From a virus: a stretch of DNA of 20,323 nucleotides. Positions within the stretch are counted from its first letter, which is position 1, and each line of letters opens with the position of its first letter. Under the pieces are notes generated by a model. The model was not told the DNA's origin and searched no databases. It saw only the letters and a program-made list of their open reading frames with translations. A program made the position numbers and the translations under genes. The DNA is taken from IMG/VR virus record IMGVR_UViG_3300042355_000734, positions 1-20,323 of that record; one strand, 5' to 3'. Positions 4,957 to 12,649 of the stretch are shown piece after piece.

Positions 4957-5239
4957 GGAAAAAAGTCCATTCGCATAAATAATATCCTCTTAACGGAAGA
5001 AACCCCCACCCCCCCATCCACCCCCTTTAAGGGGGGGTGGAGGGGGTGGGGGGTTTCTTCCTTAGAGAGAGGAAGAAGAAGAGCAGCAAAAGACTTTTTT
5101 CCTTTTTTCCAAAAGCCTCGTAAAGCCCTGTAAATAAGGCATTTGCGGTGGAAAAAAGTCGTGGAAACAATTCAGGCGAGTTTTTTCCTTTTTTCTGGAA
5201 GTCGAGTTTTGGAAAAAAGTCTTTTTTCTAGTTTTTTCC
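4957..5239. repeat. Iteron-like GGAAAAAAGTC repeats in both orientations
   Basis: The exact 11-mer GGAAAAAAGTC occurs at 4957-4967, 5150-5160 and 5211-5221, and its reverse complement at 5092-5102. One-base variants occur as reverse-complement GAGTTTTTTCC (5178-5188) and as AGTTTTTTCC (5230-5239). Related words lie in the 3' end of the primase-helicase gene (4706, 4727, 4753, 4796). The intergenic copies sit on both sides of the long G/C hairpin. They may be binding sites for the phage initiator or a regulator, but the spacing is irregular. Confidence 0.55.
4995..5061. repeat. Long G/C-rich inverted repeat (about 31-nt arms)
   Basis: The left arm (4995-5025, GGAAGAAA then long C runs) is almost the exact reverse complement of the right arm (5031-5061), leaving a 5-nt TTTAA loop and needing only a few shifts or mismatches. 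The outer GGAAGAAACCCCC / GGGGTTTCTTCC ends pair perfectly. The right arm carries runs of seven, five and six G, which could also fold as a G-quadruplex on the + strand. It could be a strong bidirectional transcription stop, an origin structure or a replication pause site. Confidence 0.7.
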
Positions 5240-6822: not shown

Positions 6823-7629
6823 ATGAACAAAAAGCAAGAACTGGGCGCTCTTTCTGTGCAGCAGGTCGATACGGAAAGCTTGATCCCCTATGCGAGAAAC
6901 GCTAAAAAGCACCCTCCGGCTCAGGTCGCAAGCATTGCATCCAGCATCAAAGAGTTTGGGTTCAATGCCCCTGTTTTGATTGATGGCGCAAACGGAATCA
7001 TTGCAGGGCATGGGCGCGTTTTAGCTGCGCAAAAGCTAGGAATGGAAAGAGTCCCATGCATTCGCATTGAACACCTTTCAGAAAACCAAAAGCGTGCTTA
7101 CATCTTGGCAGACAATAGGCTTTCAGAGCTAGGCGGTGGATGGGATGAGGAAATGCTAAAGCTCGAGATCGATGAACTTGCATCCCTTGATGTGAATGTT
7201 GAACAAATTGGATTTGATCAAGATTCGATCAAGGAGCTGATCAGCGCTGAGAAAAAAGAAATTTACACATCAAAGATCGATGCGCCTGTCTACAAACCGA
7301 CTGGTGAAAAGCCAGTAATTTCAACTCTTTTAGATTCTAAAAAGGCAGAAGACTTTCTTTCAAAAATAGACGCCAGTGACTGCACTGATGACATAAAAGT
7401 TTTTTTGAAAAAAGCAGCATCAAGGCACATCGTTTTCAATTATGGATTGATTGCTGAATTTTACTGCCATGCGGAGAAAAAAGTGCAGCATTTAATGGAG
7501 GAAATGGCATTGGTGATAATCGATTACAATCAAGCTTTAGAGCTTGGATATATAAAATTGAAAAAAGACTTACATGACTCATTGAGTGAAGAGCCCGAAT
7601 CTCAAATTGATGAAGACGAAAATGTTTAA
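6823..7629 (+). CDS. ParB/Srx-domain protein of a DNA-modification cassette
   Basis: A 268-residue protein. Residues about 10-140 form a ParB N-terminal (ParB/Srx fold) domain: LIPYARNAKKHP (20-31), ASIKEFGFNAPVLID (40-54), and the signature GHGRVLAAQKLG (62-73), then ENQKRAYILADNRLSE (87-102). In many phages this domain is followed by a DNA methyltransferase; here that is absent. In its place is a second domain (about 160-250) with KKAASRHIVFNYGLIAEFYC (196-215) and MALVIIDYNQALELGYIKL, and an acidic tail. I recall this layout next to phage TET-associated glycosyltransferases. ParB-fold proteins bind DNA and many hydrolyse nucleotides, so it may guide or regulate base modification. There is no SD. 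It overlaps the glycosyltransferase gene by 8 nt and is far more AT-rich than the virion genes. Confidence 0.8.
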   Translation: MNKKQELGALSVQQVDTESLIPYARNAKKHPPAQVASIASSIKEFGFNAPVLIDGANGIIAGHGRVLAAQKLGMERVPCIRIEHLSENQKRAYILADNRLSELGGGWDEEMLKLEIDELASLDVNVEQIGFDQDSIKELISAEKKEIYTSKIDAPVYKPTGEKPVISTLLDSKKAEDFLSKIDASDCTDDIKVFLKKAASRHIVFNYGLIAEFYCHAEKKVQHLMEEMALVIIDYNQALELGYIKLKKDLHDSLSEEPESQIDEDENV

Positions 7630-8482
7630 AAATAAATTTTGTGTTTTCATCATTTCGCATGGTCGCCCCAACAGCACAAAAACGTTAAACGTTTTACAAA
7701 AATCAGGATGTACTGACCCTGTTTTTATTGTCTGCGACGATGAAGACAAGACACTTGAAGAATACAAGAAAAACTTTGGAGCAAAGGTTTTAGTTTTCGA
7801 CAAAAAAACTTATGCATCAAAAGTAGATTCTTGCGATAATTTCAACAATCGAAGGACAACGACGCATGCTAGAAATGCATGCTTTGATTTCGCCGAGCAA
7901 CTCGGATTTGAATATTTCTTGGTGCTTGATGATGACTACACTAGCTTCAGATACAGCACTGACGGAGATGGAAAAATTGTAAGGAAAAGATGCTCTAAAA
8001 TTTCAAAAGTTTTTGAAGCTCATATCAATTTCCTTGATTGCGACGAAAGAATAAAATCGGTCTGCTTTTTGCAAACTGGAGATTTAATTGGCGGCCTTAC
8101 GGAGAAAACCAAATTAGACCATTTCCCATTCAAGAAGAGGAAGGCCATGAATTCCTTTTTTTGCAAAACAAGTAGGAGGTTTTGGTTTTTCAGCAGATTA
8201 AATGAAGACGTCAATACCTATTTGTTGTTAGGATCAAAAGGTGATTTGTTTTTTACAAATCCGACATTCTATCTGCAGCAACTTCAGACCCAAACAAATT
8301 CAGGCGGAATGTCTGAAACTTATTTGGCAAGTGGAACATATGTAAAAAGTTTTTACAGTGTTATGAATTTCCCATCATTTGCCAAAGTGGCCAAAAATAT
8401 GGCGATGAATCGCTTGCACCATAGAATATCTTGGGAAAACGCCATTCCAAAAATCATTGAGGATAAATGGAAGAAGACGTAA
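7622..8482 (+). CDS. TET-associated glycosyltransferase (TAGT / GREB1-like) for DNA base modification
   Basis: A 286-residue protein strongly resembling phage TAGT proteins. FIISHGRPNSTKTLNVL (9-25) fits the nucleotide-sugar-binding start of a GT-A-like fold. ARNACFDFAEQLGFEYFLVL precedes DDDYTSF (103-109), the metal-binding D-x-D type motif. Family-like blocks follow: RKAMNSFF (173-180), RLNEDVNTY (192-200), NSGGMSETY (226-234), SGTYVKSFYSVM (237-248) and LHHRISWENAIPKII (265-279). TAGT enzymes are predicted to add sugars to oxidised bases in phage DNA, usually beside a TET/JBP oxygenase, which is not in this window. The ATG at 7622 gives the usual N-terminus; an in-frame ATG at 7610 is the alternative. 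The gene overlaps ParB by 8 nt and the small terminase by 16 nt. It is markedly AT-rich, a sign of transfer. Confidence 0.85.
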   Translation: MFKNKFCVFIISHGRPNSTKTLNVLQKSGCTDPVFIVCDDEDKTLEEYKKNFGAKVLVFDKKTYASKVDSCDNFNNRRTTTHARNACFDFAEQLGFEYFLVLDDDYTSFRYSTDGDGKIVRKRCSKISKVFEAHINFLDCDERIKSVCFLQTGDLIGGLTEKTKLDHFPFKKRKAMNSFFCKTSRRFWFFSRLNEDVNTYLLLGSKGDLFFTNPTFYLQQLQTQTNSGGMSETYLASGTYVKSFYSVMNFPSFAKVAKNMAMNRLHHRISWENAIPKIIEDKWKKT

Positions 8483-9078
8483 AGCAGGCAAAGACATCAA
8501 TTTCGGAGGCGATGCTAAAACGCAACTTGGCAAACATTGCCAAGCGGCTGAATGATGGCAAAACGCTTACCCGTGCAGAGATTGAGTTGATTCAGTCCAC
8601 GGACTCGAAGACTCCAAAGACTGACAAGGAGTACGCAAGGCTTTACGGTTGCAATCCAAAAACAATTCAGCGTGCTAGAGACGCCGGGGCGCCGCTTGAC
8701 GACGTGGATGCGATGTCAGCATGGTTTGCTTCTAGGAAAAATTCTCCAGCAGGATCTTCAGGAATTGGAGGTAAAGCTGAAGCATTAGCGGACGCGAAGC
8801 TTGAAAAAGTTCTTGAGGAAATCAAACGCATCCGAATTAAAAACGACATCGACCTGAAGCGGGTCATACCTATTGACGCGGTTCAAAGGGACATGGTGCG
8901 GATTGGAAATGCATTCCGGTCTGAGCTTTTAAGGGTTGGCGGAGATGTTCCAAACTGGGAAGGGCTTCCGGCATCTGATATGCAAAAGCGATGGGACGAA
9001 ATCATGGAGAGGTTGTGTGCTGAATTAAGCAACTCGTTTTCGGAGCTTTACGATGATCCAGACAAGCAAGGTTGTTGA
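8467..9078 (+). CDS. Terminase small subunit (Nu1-like)
   Basis: A 203-residue protein directly before the GpA-type large terminase, where the DNA-recognition subunit is expected. A winged-helix or HTH segment is visible at about 52-90 (TDKEYARLYGCNPKTIQRAR, then DVDAMSAWFASRK), the layout of Nu1-type subunits that read 'cos' or 'pac' DNA. A Gly/Ser linker (about 94-102) leads to a long helix (EALADAKLEKVLEEIKRIRI) and a V-P-x-D-x-V-Q type segment (VIPIDAVQRDMVRIGNAF) commonly present in this family for oligomerisation. It overlaps the glycosyltransferase by 16 nt and the large terminase by 26 nt. GAGGA lies unusually close to the ATG. Confidence 0.75.
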   Translation: MEEDVKQAKTSISEAMLKRNLANIAKRLNDGKTLTRAEIELIQSTDSKTPKTDKEYARLYGCNPKTIQRARDAGAPLDDVDAMSAWFASRKNSPAGSSGIGGKAEALADAKLEKVLEEIKRIRIKNDIDLKRVIPIDAVQRDMVRIGNAFRSELLRVGGDVPNWEGLPASDMQKRWDEIMERLCAELSNSFSELYDDPDKQGC

Positions 9079-10831
9079 ATCTTGGGCCTCAACTTGGCGG
9101 CCAAGGGATAAAAGACCAGTCGCGGAGTGGGCGAGCGAGCACGTCAAAATACCAAACAGTGCCCGCTCTTCTTCGTTCGATCCGCACGCTTCGCCATGGC
9201 TTGCGGAACCATTGGAGTTTTTCGCTGACAACACAGTGAAGGAGCAGGTGTTGATTTTGCCGACGGGAGCCGGAAAGACCACAGTGTTCGATGTCGCCAT
9301 ACCTTACATCATTTCCGAAGCGCCCGGAGGGATCTTGCTTTCGATGCAGACGGATCCCGATGCGAAGGAGCACATGGAGGACCGGCTCCTTCCAATTCTC
9401 AAAGCGTGCGACCCGATTTCCGCTGCACTCGCAGGAATTGACCGACACGCAAAGCGCAAGGATGCGGTGATTCTGCCACACATGTCTCTCTTCGTTGGAG
9501 GTGCGAACAAGGCCAACTTCCAACGCAAGTCAGTTAGGTATGTGTTCCTTGACGAGGCGTGGCTGATTAAGCACGGCCTGATAGAAGAGGCGCGCGCCCG
9601 TACACATTCGCGGTGGAACTCGCGGATTATCATCGTGTCTCAGGGTGGCGACCAGCACATCGCGCTTCAAAACGAGAGGAGAAGTACGGAGCTTTTCGAC
9701 GCATGGATGCGGTCAGACAGGAGAGAGTTTTCGCTGGTGTGCCCGACGTGTTCGGAGGTTTCGCAATGGGATTTCAAAAACTTGAAATATGAGGTTGAGC
9801 GGACAGAGGATGGGCGGATTGACGAAGCGGCAATCGCTCAGTCTGCGCATTATGAGTGTCCTATGTGTTCGACACGATACGAGGACCGGCCAGAGGTTCG
9901 GCGCGAGCTTTCAATGGCGTCTCGTTACGTCGTTACAAATCCCGGAGGTTTGCCGGGACATCATGGATGGCATGCTCCAGCGATGGCATTGTTTCACGAG
10001 AAATGGGGCGACCTCGCACTCGGATGGACACGCGCACAAAAGGCGCTTTCGCTGGGCGATCAAGAGCCGTTGAAAATCTTCAAGACAAAACGACTCGCGG
10101 AGTTTTGGAAGGAAGAGGAAACCGCACCCGAGGTTGCGTTGGGCGGCGCTGGATATTCCAAAACGGAATATGAGAACGGAGAACCTTGGGACGGAGAAGA
10201 GTTTGAAAGCCGCCTGTCTCCGGTTGTCAGAGCGATGACGATTGACCGGCAACGAGATCACCGGTGGGTTATTGTGCGAGCTTGGAAGCGAGACGGGGAA
10301 AGTCGATTGCTTTGGGAGGGGAAGGTCCACACGTCAGAGGACATCGAGGCGCTCAGGCAGAGGATGCGTATTCGCAAGCAGTATGTATTTCAGGACGCGC
10401 AGTTTGAGACAGGGCAAGTTTACGATGAGTGCGTGCGGTTCGGATGGGTTGCCTTGCACGGAGCAAAAGACGATGGATTTATGCACTTCCCGAAAAACAA
10501 GCCTGCCGTCAAAAAATTCTACTCGGAAATCAAACGCGCTTCGGCTCCATGCGGCGGGACGGCACTCTATTTGTTTTGGTCAAACGAAAAGGTGAAAGAC
10601 GTTTTGGCTAACCTTCGTGGAGGAAAGGGAGCCAAATGGGAAACACCTGACGACGTGTCAGGAGATTACATCCACCAGATTGCATCCGAGGTTAAGCGCG
10701 ACGTTGTTAACAAGGCGACGAAGGCCGTGGCAGCGCGATGGGAACGGATCCGCAAAGACAACCATTTGTGGGATTGCGAGGCGATGCAGACGGTGTTTGC
10801 AATCTTCAATGGGTTCTTGGGATCGAGTTGA
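9053..10831 (+). CDS. Terminase large subunit, GpA family
   Basis: A 592-residue packaging motor that translocates DNA into the prohead and cuts it. The N-terminal ATPase has Walker A LPTGAGKTT (69-77), a coupling region, and Walker B RYVFLDEAW (162-170, D167/E168). IIIVSQGG (192-199) fits motif III. A paired CxxC site (C230/C233 in CPTC and C269/C272 in CPMC) forms the zinc-binding insert typical of lambda gpA relatives. The nuclease begins at AMTIDRQRDHRWVIVRAW (D398), with YVFQDAQFETGQVYDECVRF after it. Length is near the usual 600-650 residues. GGAG lies 7 nt before the ATG, inside the small-subunit gene. The cassette fits a cos- or pac-type siphovirus. Confidence 0.92.
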   Translation: MIQTSKVVESWASTWRPRDKRPVAEWASEHVKIPNSARSSSFDPHASPWLAEPLEFFADNTVKEQVLILPTGAGKTTVFDVAIPYIISEAPGGILLSMQTDPDAKEHMEDRLLPILKACDPISAALAGIDRHAKRKDAVILPHMSLFVGGANKANFQRKSVRYVFLDEAWLIKHGLIEEARARTHSRWNSRIIIVSQGGDQHIALQNERRSTELFDAWMRSDRREFSLVCPTCSEVSQWDFKNLKYEVERTEDGRIDEAAIAQSAHYECPMCSTRYEDRPEVRRELSMASRYVVTNPGGLPGHHGWHAPAMALFHEKWGDLALGWTRAQKALSLGDQEPLKIFKTKRLAEFWKEEETAPEVALGGAGYSKTEYENGEPWDGEEFESRLSPVVRAMTIDRQRDHRWVIVRAWKRDGESRLLWEGKVHTSEDIEALRQRMRIRKQYVFQDAQFETGQVYDECVRFGWVALHGAKDDGFMHFPKNKPAVKKFYSEIKRASAPCGGTALYLFWSNEKVKDVLANLRGGKGAKWETPDDVSGDYIHQIASEVKRDVVNKATKAVAARWERIRKDNHLWDCEAMQTVFAIFNGFLGSS

Positions 10832-10848
10832 CAGGGATTTGAATTTCA

Positions 10849-11151
10849 ATGGCCGCGCCTGACTTTTTCATCAAATCGCTTTTGAGGATTGCGATGACGC
10901 AGGGCCGCGAGGTTCTCGAAAACATCGTGACCGGCCAGTTTTCCATGCTCACAGAGAAGGGCGGGAAAATGATGACGAGTCTTTCCGCAAACGGGAAGTC
11001 GTTCTCCTTCCAAGTGGATCCGAAATTAAGCACGTCGCAAATCATGGCGACTGCGGAAGAGGCGCTTGAATTTTTTGACGGGTCGAGTCTGCAGGAAATA
11101 CAGGACTACCTAAACACGAAACCGGTCCGGACAACCAAAGCGAGGTTCTGA
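10849..11151 (+). CDS. Small protein between terminase and portal, possible head-tail connector
   Basis: A 100-residue protein. In lambda-like gene order the position between large terminase and portal is that of gpW, a head-completion protein, but I see no clear gpW sequence signature here. The sequence has a basic N-terminal helix (FFIKSLLRIAMTQGREVLEN), a strand-rich centre (NGKSFSFQVDPKLSTSQIMA) and a helix (EEALEFFDGSSLQEIQDYL), with a basic tail (RTTKARF). There is no good SD. The portal ATG lies 1 nt after its TGA. The connector role is inferred from position alone. Confidence 0.6.
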   Translation: MAAPDFFIKSLLRIAMTQGREVLENIVTGQFSMLTEKGGKMMTSLSANGKSFSFQVDPKLSTSQIMATAEEALEFFDGSSLQEIQDYLNTKPVRTTKARF

Positions 11152-11152
11152 A

Positions 11153-12649
11153 ATGCCAATCGTTGACCAGTTCGGATACCCCATTGACGCGCGACTCTTA
11201 AACGCAGCGTCGCAAACCACCGGCCGCCCTTACATCCCGGTCCGCACAGAAGGCATCTCAAAGGCCGTCGACCTCACAGACTGGCGTGCGGTGCTTTCGC
11301 TGTCGCGGCGCTTGTGGGCAAACAACGGAATCGTAAAAGGTGCCACCGTCCAGAAGGCAATGCACGCCATCGGGCGCGCTTGGAATCCAGTTTTCAGAGG
11401 GGCCGATCAAGAGTGGGGGAAGGTTGCTTCCGAGTGGTTGCGGCTATGGTATGGGACATGTAATGTCCGAGGGGAAAACCACGATTTCAAGACCTCGCTT
11501 TACCTGACATCGATCGCGATTGACAGGGACGGGGATCAGGGCTTTTTGCTGACGACATCAGAGGACGGGATGTGGCCGATGGTGCAAACCATTCCCGCGC
11601 ATCGAATCGGGCAGCGGGTAAAAGAAACCACCGTTCAAAGCGGTCCTTACAAGGGGCTCGAAATTTCGCATGGCGTTATCTGCAACAAAACAGGAAGACC
11701 GGTTGCCTATCGGATTCTTGGAGACACCGAGGCAGACGATAGAGACGTTTCGGCGCGTGATTTGATTTTCTCGTACGATCCAGAGTGGGCCGACCAACTC
11801 CGAGGATTCCCGATTTTTTCGCATGCGTTGAACGATTTACGGGACGCTGACCAATCGCAATATTGGGAGCAACTCAATCAACTCGCCTCGTCAAGTCGCA
11901 CTTTGATCGAGACGAACGAGAGCGGGCAAGCAGACATCAACGACCCCGGAATGGTTTTGGGTGATTCGGGACGCGATGGAGACATGAGCATCCAGCGACT
12001 TGAGGGCGGCACCATCACTTATTTCAAGAGCGGCTCGGGGTCCAAGCTGGAGCAGTTTGTTAACATGAGGCCCGGCGCGGACTGGGATTCGTTCCAAGAC
12101 CGGCTCGCGCGCAAGGCGCTTCTAGGCATTGGATGGCCTTACAGCTTGTGCTGGAAACCAGACGGGCAGAACGGAACGCAGGAGCGCGCAGAGATCGAGA
12201 AGGCACGCACGACGATTTTGGACCGACAGGAACTCCTTCGTCCGATGGCAAATCGGATTGTCGGATATGCGGTTTCAAAAGCGATAAAGGAAGGCATACT
12301 TCCAGAATATCGCGGCTCCGATCCAGCAGGGTTCCTGCAGTGGGATTTCACATTGCCACCCAAATTCTCGATCGATCTTGGGCGCGATGGCGCAGCGCGG
12401 CGCGAGGATTACAAACTAGGCTTCAAAAACCTTTCCGAGGTCATCGCAGAGCAGGGAGAGGTTATCGAGCAGCACATGGACGCACGCGAGCGAGAAACAC
12501 TCGACCTGTTGACGCGCGCGCGAAGGGTTGCGGATCAAGCTGGAGTGGATTTCGGAATCGCCCTTAATCTCATTCAGCAGCGCACTTCAGCCGGAGCAAT
12601 CGGAGGAGGCATGCAGGGCGCTCCGGTTGACGACATGGCGCAGAGTTGA
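11153..12649 (+). CDS. Portal protein (lambda gpB family)
   Basis: A 498-residue portal protein, the dodecameric ring through which DNA enters and leaves the capsid. The sequence follows the lambda portal pattern: LSLSRRLWANNGIVKGATVQ near residues 42-65, SIAIDRDGDQGFLL (the clip/wing region), PAHRIGQR, GVICNKTGRPVAYRIL, and the long stem helices containing DQSQYWEQLNQLASSSRTLI. Next come PGADWDSFQDRLARKALLGI and then GIGWPYSLCWKPDGQNGTQE, a conserved block near the C-terminal third of this family. The length (usual about 500-530) and position directly before the ClpP-type protease match lambda. A GCGAGG SD lies 8 nt upstream of the ATG. The tail is Met/Gly-rich. Confidence 0.9.
   Translation: MPIVDQFGYPIDARLLNAASQTTGRPYIPVRTEGISKAVDLTDWRAVLSLSRRLWANNGIVKGATVQKAMHAIGRAWNPVFRGADQEWGKVASEWLRLWYGTCNVRGENHDFKTSLYLTSIAIDRDGDQGFLLTTSEDGMWPMVQTIPAHRIGQRVKETTVQSGPYKGLEISHGVICNKTGRPVAYRILGDTEADDRDVSARDLIFSYDPEWADQLRGFPIFSHALNDLRDADQSQYWEQLNQLASSSRTLIETNESGQADINDPGMVLGDSGRDGDMSIQRLEGGTITYFKSGSGSKLEQFVNMRPGADWDSFQDRLARKALLGIGWPYSLCWKPDGQNGTQERAEIEKARTTILDRQELLRPMANRIVGYAVSKAIKEGILPEYRGSDPAGFLQWDFTLPPKFSIDLGRDGAARREDYKLGFKNLSEVIAEQGEVIEQHMDARERETLDLLTRARRVADQAGVDFGIALNLIQQRTSAGAIGGGMQGAPVDDMAQS

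Follow-up and report, generated by a model that had tools for sequence, protein, structure and literature searches.

A candidate phage DNA-glycosylation cassette in which a TAGT-family glycosyltransferase is paired with a companion domain on exchangeable N-termini

Introduction

The TET-associated glycosyltransferases (TAGTs; PF20691) are phage enzymes with a GT-A fold. They include the β-glucosyl-HMC-α-glucosyltransferase of T6, the characterised DNA-acting member of the family, which uses an already modified base (PMC13216743). The α-glucosyltransferase of T4 has a GT-B fold and binds the T4 sliding clamp gp45, which places DNA glucosylation at the replication clamp and after replication (PMC13216743). 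In the phage ParB-DNA methyltransferase fusions (PHROG 498, PADLOC MTase_II), often found near terminase genes, a ParB part and a methyltransferase share one polypeptide. Solitary TAGTs, which occur without an α- or β-glucosyltransferase, are present in 288 of 753 genomes in a 2026 T4 paper, where they are reported as unexplained and acknowledged as an open question (PMC13216743). That paper makes no mention of a partner gene, a companion domain or a tether swap, and the word "ParB" occurs in it zero times. A partial literature search returned no description of a ParB–phage TAGT pair, and Iyer 2013 may have noted a ParB association.

The locus described here resembles each of these systems in part. 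Its TAGT shares the Pfam family, the GT-A fold and the phage context of other PF20691 members, but belongs to a distinct clade with an obligate companion domain and, in nearly all of the relatives surveyed, without TET/JBP or hydroxymethylase genes. As with the solitary TAGTs, no α- or β-glucosyltransferase accompanies it. In contrast to T4, the predicted clamp motif of its relatives is on the partner protein and a hydroxymethylcytosine pathway appears to be lacking. The ParB part is common to the methyltransferase fusions, which do not contain the companion domain. By the gene content of its relatives, the cassette is neither a TET/JBP system nor a T-even hydroxymethylcytosine system. By analogy, it may work most like the clamp-bound T4 α-glucosyltransferase, or like a ParB-methyltransferase in which a sugar transferase replaces the methylase. 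On balance, the pair is probably a phage DNA-glycosylation cassette that is self-contained, moves horizontally and has swappable tethers.

Results

Organization of the locus

The DNA studied is the whole IMG/VR record IMGVR_UViG_3300042355_000734 (20,323 bp, classed linear), referred to here as the window. It is a fragment of a tailed phage, and because it is a linear fragment, genes missing from it say little on their own. Both open reading frames of the ParB-TAGT pair proposed in a preliminary description are present, and they overlap (Table 1). A longer form of the TAGT reading frame, starting from a GTG at 7586, is possible. Among relative pairs, the TAGT gene is in the +1 frame relative to its partner in 104 of 114 cases, and this relation, together with the 8-nt overlap in the window, suggests translational coupling.

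Table 1. Features of the gene pair and its neighbours in the window
Feature	Positions	Strand	Matches
ParB/Srx-domain and TAGT-companion protein, 268 aa, ATG start	6823..7629	+	PHROG 620 (E=2e-57); PHROG 498, the ParB part of phage ParB-methyltransferases (E=9e-49); PADLOC MTase_II, N-terminal part (residues 9-148, E=2e-34)
ParB/Srx-like part, common to phage ParB-methyltransferases; proposed DNA tether	6823..7263	+	
C-terminal companion domain, approximately residues 148-257	7264..7593	+	no Pfam family
TAGT-family GT-A glycosyltransferase, 286 aa from the ATG at 7622	7622..8482	+	
Overlap of the ParB-protein and TAGT genes, 8 nt, +1 frame	7622..7629	+	
Terminase small subunit, neighbour outside the cassette	8467..9078	+	PHROG 57 (E=1e-15)
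Terminase large subunit, GpA type, neighbour	9053..10831	+	PF05876 (E=1e-29)

No RNA families or tRNAs were found in the 20,323-bp window. At 1396-2105, the adjoining reading frames 1396-1737 and 1734-2105 are diverged tandem duplicates with DNA blocks that are 73-74% identical. An adjacent inverted repeat with C-rich and G-rich arms (4987-5069; 41 nt, 76% complementary) lies just 3' of the primase/helicase gene and is a possible terminator or G-rich structure.

The TAGT-family glycosyltransferase

The protein encoded at 7622-8482 matches PF20691 in an HMM search with E=5.6e-35, scoring 121.6 bits where the cut-off is 27.5, and matches PHROG 842 with E=4e-63. Its assignment to the TAGT family is thus confirmed, and all of the motifs on which the assignment had been based (SHGRP, DDDY, RKAMNSFF, RLNEDVNTY and NSGGMSETY) are present in the translation. 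DDDY corresponds to residues 103-106 and NEDV to residues 194-197 of the 286-aa protein. In 182 TAGT relatives, DDD is kept in 169 and N[ED]D in 176. An AF2 model from an alignment with 50 relatives has a pLDDT of 86 and a pTM of 0.87. Compared with solved GT-A enzymes (VIA), the model has Z scores of 14.7 for GnT-I and 14.2 for GalNAc-T2, and protein and peptide glycosyltransferases are among its closest solved folds. The predicted structure is that of a GT-A nucleotide-sugar transferase with a DxD and an acidic N-E-D motif.

Two TAGT genes per locus, mostly in tandem, are found in L100, L107, L111, L099, L064, L106 and L204. The extra copy in L111, L099, L064 and L106 has DDD and no N-E-D motif, and is perhaps a non-catalytic subunit.

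The companion domain is the constant partner of the TAGT

In loci with 134 TAGT reading frames, an HMM built from the ParB proteins finds a partner near 133 of them, almost always directly upstream. At 26-27 of these loci the partner is approximately 130 aa long and consists of the C-terminal domain alone (model positions ~140-257). This companion domain spans approximately 110 aa with six invariant residues (Y, R, A, Y, E and D) and matches no Pfam family. It is previously undescribed and is new here. An AF2 model of the domain from a relative is helical (pLDDT 81, pTM 0.56). No solved relative of this model appears at E<=0.001 in Foldseek and no Z score exceeds 3.3 in VIA, a null result that, with so small a helical model, does not establish a new fold.

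The domain is always accompanied by a TAGT in the records searched. In a tblastn search the companion domain is present in 28 of 50,697 phage records, all 28 of which are also TAGT records. In an independent IMG/VR scan of 80 loci, the same domain as query finds 82 reading frames, all with a TAGT; 78 are directly before it, and in the other four the TAGT is further downstream or overlapping. No companion domain without a TAGT was found in the 50,697 phage records or the 80 IMG/VR loci. In phage Ld17, kin of phage c5, the ParB gene is lost and the TAGT is broken, with part of its interior deleted and the C-terminal end scrambled, so the two genes have decayed together. The ParB-TAGT pairing of the preliminary description is real, but what stays constant beside this TAGT clade is the companion domain, and ParB itself is replaceable.

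The ParB/Srx part and the partition annotation

The match of the 268-aa protein to Pfam ParB_N is weak (E=1.5e-4) and under the cut-off. The PHROG 498 and PADLOC MTase_II matches cover the N-terminal part alone, and there is no methyltransferase domain behind ParB. This ParB part recurs in fusions with phage DNA methyltransferases encoded close to terminase genes; in P8625 and pOW20-A, for example, the ParB-methylase gene is just upstream of the terminase genes.

In public annotation, the partner gene is labelled a ParB-like partition protein, which would make it an ordinary partition gene whose pairing with a TAGT is accidental. The window protein scores only 25.8 bits against the partition model TIGR00180, far under the cut-off of 58.45. 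The ParB part is also missing in many relatives, in which the companion domain and the gene overlap persist. This reading deserves almost no credence and is refuted by the obligate pairing.

ParB-less partners and a predicted clamp-binding motif

The short, ParB-less partners open with sequences such as MKQINLFG. The bacterial β-clamp motif, QL(S/D)LF, is highly variable (PMC9690074). A Qxx[LM]F or Qxx[LM]xLF motif is present in 19 of 23 unique short tails and in none of 80 ParB forms; shuffled sequences yield a mean of 0.43 and a maximum of 5, and background N-termini contain it in 14 of 3,548 cases. When both locus sets are pooled, the motif is present in 65 of 74 ParB-less proteins and in 1 of 85 ParB forms. 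It is absent from the window's own ParB-form protein. In the variants QANMF, QTTLF, QYDLF and QQSLF, the Q, L/M and F are constant and the other positions differ widely. The motif count is weakened by relatedness, since most of the short forms with the motif fall in one clade: motif-bearing clusters number 5 of 11 at 60% identity, 21 of 29 at 70% and 38 of 46 at 80%. In the TAGT tree there are at least 13 changes of ParB presence, of which only 3 are forced by well-supported branches. Taken together, the motif distribution and the swaps suggest that ParB and the clamp motif are two alternative ways of tethering to DNA. The simplest reading of these sequences is that both N-termini, ParB or predicted clamp peptide, would put the enzyme on DNA.

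The same features could instead belong to a protein glycosyltransferase, in which a complex at replication forks or on ParB-bound DNA modifies the clamp, the partner, the terminase or a host factor. GREB1, a distant TAGT relative, reportedly glycosylates protein, and the solved folds nearest to the TAGT model point in the same direction. Proteins that block the clamp, SocB among them, likewise have clamp motifs (PMC9690074). However, what ParB and a clamp peptide have as a common target is DNA rather than any one protein, the TAGT of T6 acts on DNA, and the ParB part is fused to enzymes that methylate DNA. A protein target is quite unlikely, and DNA glycosylation is the likeliest role of the pair. 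To this extent the earlier proposal is supported; the sugar-modified bases themselves are an inference.

Acceptor-making enzymes are rare in cassette-bearing genomes

Enzymes that could make an acceptor base were surveyed in 50 cassette-bearing virus records. TET/JBP (PF12851) is present in one, the 13.4-kb IMG/VR contig L050, approximately 4 kb downstream of the companion/TAGT pair. The thymidylate-synthase/hydroxymethylase family (PF00303) is present in one, a 191-kb Vibrio phage. C5-methyltransferase (PF00145) and another 2OG oxygenase (PF13640) are each found in one record, and the amino-methyltransferase family PF01555 is found in eight. TET/JBP, PF00303 and PF00145 are all missing from five complete genomes: c5 (31.8 kb), jlb1, NTR1, HHTV-2 and Porphyromonas phage005b. 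This rarity in records and complete genomes suggests that the missing oxygenase is a general trait rather than a consequence of where the window ends. The preliminary description had raised, among other options, a TET-type cassette whose acceptor oxygenase was out of view, and the occurrence of the same pair in complete phage genomes without these enzymes does not bear this out. An oxygenase as a regular partner of the cassette was likewise rejected, as PF12851 and PF13640 each occur in 1 of 50 records.

Other genes adjoin the TAGT in some relatives. A UDP-galactopyranose mutase gene in L123 (10825-11973) overlaps the TAGT 3' end, which suggests UDP-galactofuranose as the donor in that phage. 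In ten loci of gut phages or prophages (L100 at 10830-11819, L009, L104, L107-L112 and L116), the TAGT is directly followed by a radical-SAM gene. The mutase, radical-SAM and tandem TAGT genes are accessory and not universal.

The TAGT might only add the sugar, as the second step of a classical pathway in which an unrecognised phage gene or a host enzyme first hydroxylates or hydroxymethylates the base. The T6 enzyme behaves in this way, one cassette contig carries a TET/JBP gene and one another 2OG oxygenase, the radical-SAM gene follows the TAGT in the gut-phage loci, and genes without a Pfam match in the complete cassette-bearing genomes could be acceptor-making enzymes. Yet there is no common acceptor-making gene, either across the 50 records or among the complete genomes surveyed, of which one has only 31.8 kb, and the hosts Lactobacillus, Escherichia, Nocardia and Haloarcula share no known base hydroxylase. 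This pathway is unlikely, but it is to be taken seriously.

A T6-type transfer of a second sugar onto glucosylated hydroxymethylcytosine is suggested by the PHROG name and by the T6 member of the family, and is very improbable here. PF00303 is absent from 49 of the 50 records, the phage-record search for the companion domain gave no match in T-even records, and identity to the TAGT clade that includes the T4-like Aeromonas phage 65 is only approximately 25%.

Mobility and distribution

The G+C content is 36-43% across the gene pair and roughly 50-57% in most of the remaining window. Relatives of the cassette adjoin many unrelated terminase types. In two phages, L134 and L137, with terminases 84-87% identical, the same flanking gene is followed by the small terminase gene, and the gap at the cassette site is only 115-157 bp as read from the ORF lists. 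Hosts of the cassette include Lactobacillus, Escherichia/Salmonella (Rac prophage), Nocardia, Porphyromonas and the archaeon Haloarcula. Of 5,426 complete E. coli genomes, 885 (~16%) contain 80% or more of the pair, in Rac prophages. The cassette is a mobile accessory element that moves horizontally.

The K-12-type strain C600 contains just an 87-codon ynaK remnant, and ynaK of E. coli K-12 is a remnant of the full ParB gene (L230:2501-2764, L231:2501-2758). A pair-bearing E. coli strain carries a gene with 100% DNA identity to the full-length copy of the Rac phage, yet its annotation reads incomplete ynaK.

Discussion

In a self-contained glycosylation cassette, the TAGT would move a sugar from a nucleotide-sugar onto phage DNA. 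The companion domain at the C-terminus of the partner would bind the TAGT; the remainder of this protein would hold the complex on DNA, by the ParB/Srx domain in the window and by a sliding-clamp peptide in relatives. The likely outcome would be DNA that is poorly cut by host nucleases. A stronger form of this proposal, which is tentative and the less probable of the two, is that the complex glycosylates an ordinary, unmodified base directly, with no prior hydroxylation, via the interchangeable ParB or clamp tethers. A literature search of limited reach found no prior description of direct glycosylation of an ordinary DNA base.

The cassette is small, is present in cultured phages and in approximately 16% of complete E. 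coli genomes, and occurs as an intact and a broken pair in c5 and Ld17, so that its substrate is directly measurable. Should canonical bases prove to be glycosylated, the chemistry would be new among DNA modifications. The exchange of ParB for a clamp motif suggests a role that ParB domains may have in phage DNA-modifying proteins generally.
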